Positions 1 through 39,316 of a stretch of 64,000 nucleotides of DNA are shown here, piece by piece. Each line of letters opens with the position of its first letter. The stretch's first letter is position 1. This DNA comes from Lactobacillus pasteurii DSM 23907 = CRBIP 24.76 (GTDB lineage: Bacteria > Bacillota > Bacilli > Lactobacillales > Lactobacillaceae). Under the pieces are notes generated by a model that was not told where the DNA came from, did not search any database, and saw only the letters and a list, made by a program, of their open reading frames with translations. Location: contig NZ_CAKD01000020.1 of assembly GCF_000297025.1 (NCBI RefSeq), forward strand, positions 62,001 to 126,000. Direction: 5' to 3'. Made by a program: the position numbers and the translations under genes.

Positions 1-21
1 AGTAAGTTATTGTTTGCATAA
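1..21 (+). CDS. Possible 3' end of the gene upstream of clpC (ctsR by position)
   Basis: Frame 1 from the window edge reads SKLLFA and then stops at 19-21. CtsR, the repressor of class III heat-shock genes, usually lies directly before clpC and ends in a similar hydrophobic tail. Seven codons cannot identify a protein, so this rests on position only. Confidence 0.2.
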   Translation, partial: SKLLFA

Positions 22-60
22 ATTAGATATATTAGTTAAAGGTCATAAGGTGGGATTTGT

Positions 61-2559
61 TTGGATATTTCATACAGTAATAGTGCAAATCAAGTATTAG
101 AGATTGCTCGTCAGCAAGCACAATATTTTCAACATCGAATGATTGGAACAGAGCACGTGCTCTTGGCGATGATCATTGAGTCAGATGGGGATGCTGGCAA
201 GGCGCTTCGTTCATGGGGACTTACTCCTTCTGCGGTAAGCGACGAGATTGAGCGTTATACTGGCTACGGTTCAGCTGCTAAGGCCAATTACATCGAAATG
301 TCTCCTAGATTAGCGATGGTGCTAGATTTTGCTAGAAGAAGTGCCAATGAATCTTCCAGCGATGAGATTACGACCAGTCATATCTTGCTGGGCTTGATTG
401 CTAATGAGCAGATTTTGTCAGCTAAGATTTTGCTTAACTTTAATGTTGACCTAGATCAATTGAGATCAGACTTAGAGGAAAACATCAACTTTTTCCAAGC
501 TGGCCAAGAAGATAATGCTCCGCAAAGATCTAGATATGGTCAAGCTGGTGGTCCTACTAGAAACACGGGCAAGCGTTCTACAACGCCAACTTTGGACCGG
601 GTAGCGATTGACTTGAATCAACGGGTAAAAAATGGCGAAGTTGATCCAGTGATTGGTCGCGATAAGGAAATTAAGCGTGTAATTCAAATTTTGTCTCGCC
701 GCACAAAGAATAATCCAATGCTTATTGGTGAGCCAGGTGTTGGTAAGACTGCGGTAGCAGAAGCAATTGCAACTGAAATCGTCAACAAGAGAGTACCGGC
801 AGATTTGCGTAATAAACGAGTAATGACCCTGAACATCGCTAACATGGTAGCTGGAACCAAGTTCAGAGGCGAGTTTGAAGATCGCATGCGCAAGATGCTG
901 CAAGAAATTGCTCGCGATGGCAAGGTGATTTTGTTTATCGATGAAATGCACACCTTGATCGGTGCCGGCGGGGCAGAAGGGGCAATTGATGCCTCCAATA
1001 TTTTAAAGCCCGCTCTAGCTCGAGGCGATTTACAAATGATTGGGGCTACGACTTTTGACGAATATCAAAAATATGTCGAAAAAGATCAAGCCTTGGCTAG
1101 ACGCTTCCAGCAAGTGCGCTTGAATGAACCAAGCACTAAGGATACTTTGAACATTTTAACCGGTTTGCGTCCAAAATACGAAGAATATCACCACGTAACA
1201 ATTAGCGACGAAAGTTTGCAAGCAGCGGTCAATTTATCAACGCGCTACATTGCAAGTCGCTATTTGCCAGATAAGGCAATCGACTTGATCGATGAAGCTA
1301 GTGCAGCCGTTAAAATTAAAAACAATGCCGGCAGAAGCGACCGTCTAGATCAATTCAATGATCAATTAAAGAAAATCATCGAGAAGAAGAATGCTGCAGC
1401 AGCTAGTCAAAACTTTGTCGAAGCAGCTAAGTTGCAAGAAATGCAGAACAATTTGAATTTGCAACGCAATGATTTAGCTGAAAAATTGCACCAAAAAGAT
1501 GCCGGCAAGGCAGTTGTGACTCCTGAAGATATTGCTGTGGTCGTTTCATCTTGGACTGGCGTGCCAGTAACGCAAATGAAAACTAGTGAAACCAAGCGTT
1601 TAGCTCAACTGGAAGAGATTTTGCATCAAAGAGTCATTGGCCAATCAAAAGCTGTGTCAGCTGTGGCTAAAGCAATTAGACGTAGTAGAAGTGGCATTAA
1701 AGATGAACGCCGGCCAATTGGTTCATTCTTATTCTTAGGACCAACTGGTGTTGGTAAGACTGAATTAGCTAAGGCAGTTGCTCATGCAGTCTTTGGCTCA
1801 GATGCCAACATGATCAGAATCGACATGTCAGAATACATGGATTCTATTGCCAGCAGCAAGTTAATCGGTTCAGCTCCTGGATATGTTGGCTATGAAGAAG
1901 GCGGTCAATTATCCGAACAAGTTCGTCGTCATCCTTACTCAGTTATTTTGCTTGATGAGGTTGAAAAGGCGCACCCAGATGTCTTCAATTTGCTATTGCA
2001 GGTTTTAGATGAAGGATTTTTGACAGATTCCAAGGGTCGAAAGGTAGACTTTAGAAATACAATCATTATCATGACTTCTAACTTGGGCTCAAGAAGCTTA
2101 TTTGAGACTAAGGCAGTCGGCTTTACCGCTGACAGCAATGCTCAAGCAAACTTGCGCGAAGACAAGGTTAAGCAAGCTTTGAAGCAATTCTTCAGGCCGG
2201 AATTTTTGAACAGAATTGATGGTACGATTGTCTTTGATCAATTATCAGAAAAAGAGTTGCGCGAAATTGTAACCTTGTTGACCAAACGTTTGGTTGATCG
2301 CTTGGAGGCTAAGGGCATTACTTTGAAGATTTCAAGAGCAGCCTTAGATAAGATTGCTAAAGATGGCTATGATCCAGAAAATGGTGCTAGACCGCTTAGA
2401 AGAACAATTCAAAACGAAATCGAAGACGAAATCGCCAGTATGCTGATCGATGGTGCCGTAAGTAAGGGCGACATCATTAAGATTGGTGCTAGTCGCGACA
2501 AGTTGAAGTTCGATCTTGTCAAAAAACAAAGCAAAATCAAGGAAGCTGTAGAAGTTTAA
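61..2559 (+). CDS. clpC: ATP-dependent Clp protease ATP-binding subunit ClpC
   Basis: ClpC is a hexameric AAA+ unfoldase that feeds damaged or tagged proteins to ClpP in the cytoplasm. The 832-residue protein has two Clp N repeats (about 1-150) and a first AAA domain with Walker A GEPGVGKT at 223-230. A short UVR-type coiled middle region follows near 430-470, then a second AAA domain with GPTGVGKT at 560-567. A VGF tripeptide at 686-688 lies in the loop that docks on ClpP. The UVR region and full length separate ClpC from ClpE and ClpB. The start is TTG, placed by AAGGTGGG at 47-54. In Firmicutes clpC is usually in the CtsR regulon. Its own promoter is not in view, so it is probably cotranscribed with the gene upstream. 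Confidence 0.95.
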   Translation: MDISYSNSANQVLEIARQQAQYFQHRMIGTEHVLLAMIIESDGDAGKALRSWGLTPSAVSDEIERYTGYGSAAKANYIEMSPRLAMVLDFARRSANESSSDEITTSHILLGLIANEQILSAKILLNFNVDLDQLRSDLEENINFFQAGQEDNAPQRSRYGQAGGPTRNTGKRSTTPTLDRVAIDLNQRVKNGEVDPVIGRDKEIKRVIQILSRRTKNNPMLIGEPGVGKTAVAEAIATEIVNKRVPADLRNKRVMTLNIANMVAGTKFRGEFEDRMRKMLQEIARDGKVILFIDEMHTLIGAGGAEGAIDASNILKPALARGDLQMIGATTFDEYQKYVEKDQALARRFQQVRLNEPSTKDTLNILTGLRPKYEEYHHVTISDESLQAAVNLSTRYIASRYLPDKAIDLIDEASAAVKIKNNAGRSDRLDQFNDQLKKIIEKKNAAAASQNFVEAAKLQEMQNNLNLQRNDLAEKLHQKDAGKAVVTPEDIAVVVSSWTGVPVTQMKTSETKRLAQLEEILHQRVIGQSKAVSAVAKAIRRSRSGIKDERRPIGSFLFLGPTGVGKTELAKAVAHAVFGSDANMIRIDMSEYMDSIASSKLIGSAPGYVGYEEGGQLSEQVRRHPYSVILLDEVEKAHPDVFNLLLQVLDEGFLTDSKGRKVDFRNTIIIMTSNLGSRSLFETKAVGFTADSNAQANLREDKVKQALKQFFRPEFLNRIDGTIVFDQLSEKELREIVTLLTKRLVDRLEAKGITLKISRAALDKIAKDGYDPENGARPLRRTIQNEIEDEIASMLIDGAVSKGDIIKIGASRDKLKFDLVKKQSKIKEAVEV

Positions 2560-36970: not shown

Positions 36971-37906
36971 ATGCGTAAAATATTTTTGCTACGGGGTGCA
37001 CCTGGCTCCGGAAAATCTTCTTTTATTGCACGTCATCATTTACAGCCTTATGCTATTAGTCGAGATCAAATTAGGCTTTTATTGGCGGACTTAACAGTTT
37101 ATTACTCAGAAGAAGAAGATTACTTACATCAGGTGATTCCGCGTCATGTTACTGTACAGACGCAAAAAATGGTGGATAATCTTGTCGAACACAAGATGTC
37201 CTATGGGGAAACAGTGATCGTCGATGGGACACACGTTTTGCCAAGTGCAATCGAGCACTTTAAGCCAATGGTTGATAAGTATCATTATGAGTTATTTGTA
37301 GTAGATTTGATGCAGCACAATACTTTGGAGAATTTATTGAAGCGAAATCAAACTAGAATGCACTACGACTGGGTTAAACCAGAAGTAGTAAAGCAGATGT
37401 ACTACGAATATGAAGCTCATCCAGAAGTTCCAGAGTGGGCACATAAGATTTTGCCTAATCAAATGGACAAGGCCTTGTCACAAAGAGAAAGCAACTTAGA
37501 CAAGTATTCACATGTTATTGCCGTACCAGATAAGGTGGATGAAAAAGATTTTCCACATGTGCATATTTCTAACTTCTACTTCTCGTTTAACAACAAGTTT
37601 AGCGAGAAGTACGGTACTTACCGTAATGTTGTAACGATCGCCAAAAACAAAGAAGAGGCAGTTGAAGAATTCAAGTTGCCATATTTTGCTTTTAAGTTCC
37701 ATCACAAGCACTTCATCATTTCGGCATACCCAATTAGAAATGAAATGTTGGATCCTATTCGTAAAGTCAAAGGCGTATGGACTTACTCGACTGGTTTGTT
37801 TAACGTTGCAGATTATGTGCGAGAATTTCCAGAAAACCAGCAGCAACATGTTCATCAGTTCAATTTGAGCAAGCTAGATCCGACGCGTTTATTACATATT
37901 TGGTAA
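36971..37906 (+). CDS. Polynucleotide-kinase-like P-loop kinase with unknown C-terminal domain
   Basis: The N-terminal half (about 1-165) resembles the 5'-kinase domain of T4 Pnkp. It has P-loop GAPGSGKS at 9-16, ISRDQIR with Asp32 in the place of the general base, VIVDGTH, and a lid arginine in NQTRMHY followed by VKPEVVKQMYYEY. The C-terminal part (about 180-311) is rich in aromatic residues, lysine and histidine and matches no family I know. It has neither a DxDxT phosphatase motif nor a ligase motif. Expected activity is phosphoryl transfer to a nucleic acid end or small molecule, not proven. It has its own terminator. Confidence 0.75.
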   Translation: MRKIFLLRGAPGSGKSSFIARHHLQPYAISRDQIRLLLADLTVYYSEEEDYLHQVIPRHVTVQTQKMVDNLVEHKMSYGETVIVDGTHVLPSAIEHFKPMVDKYHYELFVVDLMQHNTLENLLKRNQTRMHYDWVKPEVVKQMYYEYEAHPEVPEWAHKILPNQMDKALSQRESNLDKYSHVIAVPDKVDEKDFPHVHISNFYFSFNNKFSEKYGTYRNVVTIAKNKEEAVEEFKLPYFAFKFHHKHFIISAYPIRNEMLDPIRKVKGVWTYSTGLFNVADYVREFPENQQQHVHQFNLSKLDPTRLLHIW

Positions 37907-37910
37907 AAGA

Positions 37911-37945
37911 AAAAAACTTAGAGTTTTTCGACTCTAAGTTTTTTT
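37911..37945. terminator. Bidirectional terminator between the kinase gene and pepC
   Basis: AAAAACTTAGAGT and ACTCTAAGTTTTT pair over a short TTTTCG-type loop, with A and T tracts on the two sides. Confidence 0.9.
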
Positions 37946-37966: not shown

Positions 37967-39316
37967 TTAATAGTTAAAAGCAAGAGCTCCCATTGGGTCC
38001 CATGGTTGCAATTCAATAGGGTTATCCTTGCCATCTTCATATGCCTTCTTCAAGTCTTCTGGCAAGATAGCGGTGTTGATAACTGCTTGGTAAACAAAAG
38101 TTTCAAACCACTTGTCGCTCATTACGAAGTAGCCCTTAAATCCAGCTTTTTCACCCCATGAGTTTTCGATCTTCCACTTAGTTGGCTTGCCATCGACTAA
38201 GTCAACGCCAGTAATAACCATAGCGTGGTCCATCATGCTTTCACCAGATACTAATCTTTCAGCCTTAGTCATTGAGAAGTCAACGTCAAATAATTCATCG
38301 CGCTTGTATAATTCAGTATCTAATAAACCAGCTTTGCGTTCAGAATCTTTAACAACGTTTGAACCAAACCAAACAACTTCGCCAGATTGCAATTGCTTGA
38401 TGATCAAGTCCTTCATTTCGTCCACAGTTAAGTTAAGGTGACGAACTTGACGACCGCCTTGAACATTACCAAGGTATTCAACTGAGAATACCTTGTGGAA
38501 AGGCTTGTCTTCAGTAGGTGCGTTGATAGTTGAAATATGGTTGTCTAAGTCCATGTTGACATATTTCTTGAAGAATTCTTGTGGAGTGATGTCCTTGTCA
38601 ATGTGGTAAACATTGTCATCATCACGGTATTCAAAGTTGAATTTCTTTGGTGGTACGCCTAAAGAAATAGCCAAGATTCTGAAGACATCGTTAAGCATTT
38701 CAAGCTTGCGAGCTTCAACTTCTTCAGCTGATTTTCCTTCGTTAACTAACTTGCGCAATTCAAGACCATCCTTGCGAAGCAAAGTGTTAAGAGTGTCGTT
38801 TAAAGCAGCAGAGCTAGTTGCGTTGAAAGTTTCTGGGTAAACGCTCTTAGGAACGATACCATACTTTTCGATAAGTCCGCAAAGCATGTCCCATTGTCCA
38901 CCATCTTGTTGAGGAGTAGTGAATAAGAAAGCAACCTTACGGTCATCTAAAGGCTTGTCAGCACTTGCAATAACATTTTCAAAGAACCAGTTTGACTTTT
39001 CGAACTTGTCCCAGAAGTTAGTGTAGTTTTGAGATAATTCAAAGTCTTTGATCTTGTAGTTCTTTTGCAAAGGATGTCTCATGGTGTTAAGAGCTGAGAA
39101 CATCCAGCAACGACCTGATTGCTTTTGGTCAGAAGGCTTGCCAGTTTCGATTTCAACTGAAAAAGTTGGAGTCAAATCGATTGTGGCTTGCAAGTTTTGA
39201 CTAGCTTTAAAAATACCGTTTTCTTGAGCAGCACGGCTAGCTACGTTAAAAGCAGAGTGATTTGATAAATCTGCTTTAAAGTTATCGATAGTTTCAGATG
39301 TAATTTCTTTTACCAT
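37967..39316 (-). CDS. pepC: Aminopeptidase C (bleomycin hydrolase family)
   Basis: PepC is a cytoplasmic hexameric cysteine aminopeptidase of lactic acid bacteria that releases N-terminal residues from casein-derived peptides. The 449-residue protein has the catalytic triad Cys70 (QSGRCWMFSALN), His364 (MDHAMVITG) and Asn385 (IENSWGEKAGFKG). The C-terminus ends ALAFNY, close to the bleomycin hydrolase tail that blocks the active site. The SD AAGGTAAGG precedes the ATG. It is monocistronic. Confidence 0.95.
   Translation of the reverse strand: MVKEITSETIDNFKADLSNHSAFNVASRAAQENGIFKASQNLQATIDLTPTFSVEIETGKPSDQKQSGRCWMFSALNTMRHPLQKNYKIKDFELSQNYTNFWDKFEKSNWFFENVIASADKPLDDRKVAFLFTTPQQDGGQWDMLCGLIEKYGIVPKSVYPETFNATSSAALNDTLNTLLRKDGLELRKLVNEGKSAEEVEARKLEMLNDVFRILAISLGVPPKKFNFEYRDDDNVYHIDKDITPQEFFKKYVNMDLDNHISTINAPTEDKPFHKVFSVEYLGNVQGGRQVRHLNLTVDEMKDLIIKQLQSGEVVWFGSNVVKDSERKAGLLDTELYKRDELFDVDFSMTKAERLVSGESMMDHAMVITGVDLVDGKPTKWKIENSWGEKAGFKGYFVMSDKWFETFVYQAVINTAILPEDLKKAYEDGKDNPIELQPWDPMGALAFNY

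Follow-up and report, generated by a model that had tools for sequence, protein, structure and literature searches.

The window, by which we mean the whole 64,000-nucleotide stretch of Lactobacillus pasteurii DNA analysed here, encodes at 36971..37906 (+) a 311-aa protein that we read, with a probability of about two in three, as an NTP-dependent 5'-OH polynucleotide kinase joined to a structurally retained pseudo-phosphatase and descended from a kinase-metallophosphoesterase (MPE)-ligase end-healing enzyme. The gene is a conserved variant, probably with a housekeeping role, within a known family of repair enzymes, and the evolutionary route suggested for it is unusual: a repair-type kinase has become near-universal in a genus whose members live in the gut, the vagina and food, its phosphatase now being apparently a non-catalytic scaffold and its ligase lost. 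If the kinase acts on RNA ends without a ligase, this would point to 5'-end phosphorylation as something that bacteria do routinely when they turn over RNA or repair DNA nicks. The protein is not described in the titles and abstract openings of the papers found by our literature search, and the passage of PMC4837152 that came up concerns a kit reagent only.

The gene and its genomic context

The open reading frame starts with ATG and is followed directly 3' of its stop codon by a 16-bp A/T-rich hairpin (37910..37945, no strand assigned), a probable intrinsic terminator with a folding z of -4.8 that none of 200 shuffles equalled in stability. This hairpin is absent from the output of a consensus terminator scan. 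The protein is 311 aa long in all 34 loci read (L001-L034, of which L001 is the window's own copy and L033 and L034 belong to a third genus), and this constant length, together with the strong hairpin after the stop, argues that the reading frame is a real and complete gene.

The hairpin sits between the kinase gene and a convergent C1-peptidase gene (37967-39316, -), beyond which lie, in order, a short ORF that matches no Pfam family and the genes for a dUTPase, a RadA-type ATPase and a protein of the glutamyl-tRNA-synthetase type. Upstream, a histidine-phosphatase-family (phosphoglycerate-mutase type) gene ends 104 bases before the kinase start. We take the C1-peptidase to be of the pepC type and the last two genes to be RadA and gltX. 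The earlier note had seen no adjacent ligase or methyltransferase, and a family scan at E 1e-5 likewise found neither among the nine neighbours, one of which, a 100-aa ORF, has no family. The promoter scan of the window stayed below shuffle level, and ARAGORN reported no tRNA genes in it.

Reading five loci for synteny did not reveal a functional partner, as the neighbours vary. In the third genus and in L. helsingborgensis the upstream gene is presumably of the gpmA type and the downstream gene of the pepC type, and transporter or galactose genes lie in between; in L. delbrueckii we take the upstream gene to be fabZ-like and the downstream one to be of the pepC type; and the gene downstream in two Lapidilactobacillus loci is presumably GatD-like. 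A pepC-type gene is thus nearby in 3/3 loci read outside Lapidilactobacillus.

The kinase domain

Sequence comparison and structural modelling support the reading of the N-terminal half (residues 1-170; 36971..37480, +) as a polynucleotide-kinase-type P-loop kinase with a putative enzymatic activity. The T4-type kinase motifs that the earlier note had described are all visible in the translation, namely GAPGSGKS (residues 9-16), SRDQ (30-33), VDGTH (84-88), NQTR (126-129) and VKPEVVKQMY (135-144), and ten motif positions (K15, S16, D32, R35, D85, T87, H88, R125, N126 and R129) are identical in 24 of 24 relatives. K15 and S16 belong to the P-loop GxxGxGK(S/T), present here as GAPGSGKS. D32 and R35 align to SSDFCR of the Clostridium thermocellum Pnkp (CthPnkp) kinase and are presumably the catalytic Asp and Arg after strand 2 (D35/R38 in T4, D38/R41 in CthPnkp), while R125, N126 and R129 form an R-N-x-x-R motif whose arginines we take to be the lid arginines.

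The kinase half matches Pfam AAA_33 (E 4.8e-11) and phrog_505 'polynucleotide kinase' (E 5.4e-17), and residues 1-186 match phrog_8238 'RNA ligase' (E 9.7e-35). Profile searches had been proposed for both domains; they identified the kinase through these families, whereas the C-terminal domain obtained no significant Pfam family. By tblastn against phages, the best 60 of 120 records gave 25.5-33.2% identity to the kinase part of kinase-phosphatase-ligases.

A model of the full protein, built from 24 sequences (pLDDT 87.4, pTM 0.80), was compared with the PDB. The top five rows are all the CthPnkp kinase (Z 17.6-18.1, 2.3-2.5 Å, 153-154 residues), followed by PSTK (L-seryl-tRNA(Sec) kinase; Z 15.1), T4 Pnkp (14.9, effectively tied with PSTK) and Pnkp1 (14.4), with two fungal kinases (13.9 and 13.6) and mammalian PNKP (13.6) lower down. 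The earlier note had named placement in a small-molecule kinase family as the outcome that would count against it; such kinases, among the matches listed, rank below CthPnkp, with chloramphenicol phosphotransferase at Z 13.0 and gluconate kinase at 12.9. Foldseek alone against the PDB concurs for the kinase (4gp7_A, E 9e-8) and adds little on the C-terminal half.

Since PSTK is as near to the model as T4 Pnkp is, the phosphate may go to an acceptor other than a free 5'-OH end. The kinase might act instead on another hydroxyl, either of a tRNA-linked group (as PSTK does) or of a small molecule, with the altered MPE serving as a substrate-specific platform, and we would give this about the standing of an outside candidate. 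An NCBIfam PSTK match (E 5.9e-5, score 22.6 against a cut-off of 290.5) and weak Pfam matches to zeta-toxin and KTI12 models point in the same direction as the structural tie; however, the top sequence families are an RNA ligase (its kinase part) and a polynucleotide kinase, CthPnkp exceeds PSTK by 3 Z units, and in the relatives of the gene an RNA ligase is fused to the kinase. A polynucleotide kinase, and with it the stand-alone end-healing enzyme suggested by the earlier note, remains the best reading of what this domain would do.

The C-terminal domain

The earlier note had called the C-terminal sequence unfamiliar, and sequence searches agree. Pfam gave nothing significant for the C-terminal domains of 24 members (the lowest E was 0.024, and no family came up in more than one member), and in the window protein Metallophos does not match at E up to 10. 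The protein stops at residue 311 with no ligase domain and no Pfam ligase match. Searching phages by tblastn with the window's C-terminal domain retrieved nothing at E up to 10, and with that of Lapidilactobacillus seven records at E 4 to 10; PDB sequences offered nothing convincing (best E 0.19). When 295 genomes from the order were searched with the single sequence, there were 16 matches, 14 in Lactobacillus and two in Lapidilactobacillus. A profile search of 398 genomes of the class also gave 16 matches with E no higher than 1. The only strong ones are three in Lactobacillus; we read the other 13 (E 0.014-0.92, several running through stops) as chance.

The predicted structure is more informative. 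Modelled alone, the domain (residues ~181-311; 37511..37903, +) has a pLDDT of 89.8 and a pTM of 0.84, and in a PDB search all 50 of the 50 matches listed are, judged by title, MPE-type phosphatases or complexes containing one, although these include many repeats of PP1, PP2A and PP5. The best match is lambda phosphatase (Z 9.3, 2.9 Å, 129/141 residues, 1..141 onto 4..217), a value that modestly exceeds the 7-8 typical for models without clear relatives; of 432 PDB chains aligned, 146 reach Z of at least 5 and two reach at least 8. Against viral models, Foldseek ranked the kinase-MPE-ligase from Lactobacillus phage 3-521 first for the full model (E 4.5e-17 over 339 columns, TMq 0.67), the next viral match (E 3.5e-8) being a 163-residue protein aligned along the kinase length. 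With the domain alone, phage 3-521 again came first (E 0.043, TMq 0.44), and no viral match reached E 0.001 or better.

The C-terminal part is thus probably not a new domain but has, in the model, the MPE fold, a double beta-sandwich. Where the earlier note had proposed a domain replacing the usual phosphatase, the fold search of the predicted domain points to the MPE phosphatases themselves, in what looks like a shrunken form without their motifs. We would like to note that the MPE identity rests mainly on predicted structure, because no sequence library names the domain.

Similarity to the kinase-MPE-ligase proteins does extend past the kinase, through the linker and into the first MPE strand at about residue 187 (residues 171-187; 37481..37531, +). 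When profile columns from residue 176 onwards were shuffled, the alignment score fell from the true 323.5 to 302.6 +/- 1.9, whereas shuffling from about residue 190 gave a mean of 324.2, i.e., no gain from the true order. The matched stretch aligns the window's FKFHHKHFIIS strand to the relatives' YRYNDKTFVVSHAG strand. Taken alone against an MPE profile, the C-terminal part scored 26.4 from residue 171 (reached by 1 of 200 column shuffles) and 27.8 from residue 181 (reached by none of 200), at low hhalign probabilities of 13% and 20% (6-11% with a smaller profile). Homology to the relatives' kinase or ligase parts was considered and rejected, as hhalign scored residues 171-311 at about 21 and about 14 against these, versus 26 against the MPE part.

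These results also bear on an explanation that we consider improbable, namely that the C-terminal domain is unrelated to MPEs and has converged on, or been modelled as, an MPE-like beta-sandwich. It would account for the silence of the sequence-only library searches on MPEs, for the shuffle-level alignment beyond residue 190, and for the behaviour of two trimmed C-terminal profiles (from residues 181 and 188), which, with the smaller profile, preferred the P-loop stretch of the full-length relatives over their MPE (scores 22.1 and 22.2). It does not sit well with the identical position of the domain in an identical protein architecture, with the similarity running into the first MPE strand, with structural matches listed that are by title MPE-type throughout, or with a best viral match that has the predicted parent architecture.

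A probably lost metal site in a conserved domain

On the reading of the domain as MPE-derived, we looked at the dimetal ligands GDxH, GDxxDR, GNH(E/D), VTHxG and HGH in 24 sequences, and no counted position is kept by all 24. According to a profile alignment that is of low confidence in this stretch, the D of GDxH is D16/E4/A3/R1 and its H is V15/M1/A8; the first D of GDxxDR is N in all 24; the N of GNH is T15/D7/N2 and its H is K, R, L or other, never H; and the H of VTHxG is A14/S8/T2. The HGH motif lies outside the aligned stretch, and the tail of the window protein contains no GH. Among 31 kinase-MPE proteins, 28-31 have the classical residue at these positions. The domain is also about 90 residues shorter than those of its relatives (~130 versus ~220). 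With an MPE-like fold and no ligand position common to all 24 sequences, the protein appears to combine a kinase and a pseudo-phosphatase of miniature size, in which the modelled MPE core would be retained and the metal centre gone.

Nevertheless, the domain is not simply decaying, because among 14 Lactobacillus sequences it is conserved like the kinase (mean pairwise identity 81% versus 78.5%). In eight Lapidilactobacillus sequences it is less conserved than the kinase (66% versus 75%), and between the window and Lapidilactobacillus identity is 23-28% for the C-terminal domain and 42-45% for the kinase. As dS was saturated in nearly all pairs, leaving 3 of 91 Lactobacillus pairs usable for dN/dS, conservation was judged by identities only. 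Five residues, H198, N207, K213, H247 and R256, are invariant in 24/24 despite the low identity to Lapidilactobacillus, and one could imagine them forming the rebuilt active site of a residual phosphatase, but with none of six counted metal-ligand positions classical in all members (the first Asp is kept in 16/24) and a domain so much shortened, we regard this as very improbable.

Distribution

Matches were found in 57 of 61 Lactobacillus genomes and true orthologues in 56, the match in G024 being rejected as weak and directed to a 220-aa paralogue. The five genomes without an orthologue are 54, 57, 67, 71 and 85% complete, and an orthologue is present in all 49 Lactobacillus genomes that are at least 90% complete with low contamination. 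In a Lactobacillaceae sample of 301 genomes there were 27 matches, 25 of them orthologues: 15 in Lactobacillus, eight in Lapidilactobacillus (8/8 genomes positive) and two in the third genus (2/2). No orthologue was found in any other genus of this sample. The two family matches rejected were a kinase-phosphatase-ligase (G344) and a weak match with a stop (G300).

The earlier note had associated such kinases with RNA-repair or phage-defence modules. This does not hold for the window gene, a near-universal single gene of its genus and not part of a mobile module for repair or defence; we also rejected such a module in view of a best PADLOC match that is weak (E 0.0025) and covers 36 residues of a single model, and of nine scanned neighbours without a ligase or methyltransferase family.

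Two further observations concern related sequences. A contig titled Faecalicatena absiana (L086) carries a 311-residue match with 78% identity and likely comes from a mislabelled or contaminated Lactobacillus assembly. Some Lactobacillus genomes (L045, L046 and L047; G058 and G027) encode a 220-aa kinase-only paralogue that is 28% identical to the window kinase.

Proposed function

We propose that the NTP-dependent kinase phosphorylates 5'-OH polynucleotide ends, most likely of RNA. Its ancestor would be a three-domain kinase-metallophosphoesterase-ligase whose ligase was lost and whose phosphatase was reduced to a pseudo-phosphatase of about 130 residues, with the core fold and no metal centre. 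The pseudo-domain may have been retained for a structural job, such as dimerisation or holding a nucleic-acid strand beside the kinase. RNase J carries out 5'-monophosphate-dependent RNA decay, and the 5'-phosphate produced could make the end a substrate for enzymes that require a 5'-monophosphate, such as RNase J, or for DNA ligase.

None of 41 Lactobacillus genomes, of which 32 are at least 90% complete, had a match to any of the Pfam families RtcB, RNA_ligase and RNA_lig_T4_1; this absence covers three families, and the genomes may encode a ligase of another kind. As positive controls, RtcB was recovered in 9/14, RNA_ligase in 6/14 and RNA_lig_T4_1 in 0/14 of the standard set but in 3/3 chosen records. 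With the three RNA-ligase families absent, the 5'-phosphate is probably put to a use different from the known sealing of RNA, and the joining of product ends by a known RNA ligase appears unlikely from these searches. A more specific scenario, which we offer as speculation with the odds against it, is that Lactobacillus and the two related genera carry out a dedicated housekeeping phosphorylation of 5'-OH ends without sealing, so that RNA cut by RNases or toxins is cleared by 5'-monophosphate-dependent RNases; the dead phosphatase would then bind RNA, possibly sensing 3'-phosphate or cyclic ends while leaving them in place.

Comparison with known systems and origin

The window protein shares its kinase motifs, linker, domain order and MPE fold with the phage and bacterial kinase-MPE-ligases (phrog_8238; phage 3-521, Lachnospiraceae, SPbeta-like and Herelleviridae phages). 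Those proteins differ in having a ligase and a full-size MPE with its metal ligands, the ligand set being lost in the window protein, and in being phage or scattered genes, whereas the window gene is core chromosomal. With the CthPnkp kinase of the Pnkp-Hen1 system (4gp6, 4gp7 and 4mde) it has in common the fold and the catalytic residues. It falls far short of the NCBIfam model of bacterial Pnkp, however (TIGR04075, score 27.6 versus a cut-off of 750), has no ligase and, by prediction, no active phosphatase, and its scanned neighbours include no counterpart of Hen1. The phosphatase of Pnkp-Hen1 is an MPE. The kinase domains of T4 Pnkp and Pnkp1-Rnl-Hen1 are alike to that of the window protein, while their phosphatase is assigned in PMC4411300 to a different superfamily from that of Pnkp-Hen1. 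Lambda Ser/Thr phosphatase and PPP-type MPEs resemble the predicted C-terminal fold, yet the window domain is 10% identical and does not have the conserved metal site.

The closest architecture-mates are mostly ~730-aa proteins of Lachnospiraceae and phages. AAA_33, Metallophos and RNA_lig_T4_1 occur together in four of the five mates scanned, these being the full-length ones and the fifth, from Methanosarcina, having no ligase; the phage 3-521 protein (YP_009844128.1) has the same three families. A tree of 49 kinase domains places the 11 short proteins included in a single clade (98/94), whose node of attachment, among several lineages of kinase-MPE-ligases, is unresolved. With a T4-like root, the simplest history is that ligase and phosphatase activity were lost once and that the short proteins afterwards spread through Lactobacillaceae, and horizontal transfer may have taken place among the genera carrying them.

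Several relatives show other states of the architecture. The G344 protein (L205:5684-7879), from another Lactobacillaceae genus, is a 731-aa kinase-phosphatase-ligase in a chromosomal-looking context (PF09511, E 4e-20). Methanosarcina (L126, L129 and L130, frames from 8001) encodes kinase-MPE proteins of 392-400 aa without a ligase, and three of the 31 kinase-MPE rows, which we read as Methanosarcina, carry N in place of the histidine of GDxH and G in place of the second Asp of GDxxDR, apparently a parallel and less advanced ligand loss. Phage Lbab1 (L194:2501-3025) has a 174-aa kinase-only gene that is closely related to the kinase of the 760-aa enzyme from phage Lb338-1; a transposase gene lies immediately upstream of it, and a recent truncation is possible. 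Finally, Anaerovibrio (L138 and L139) encodes 170-aa kinase-only proteins that fall inside the kinase-MPE-ligase group with weak support (89/88).
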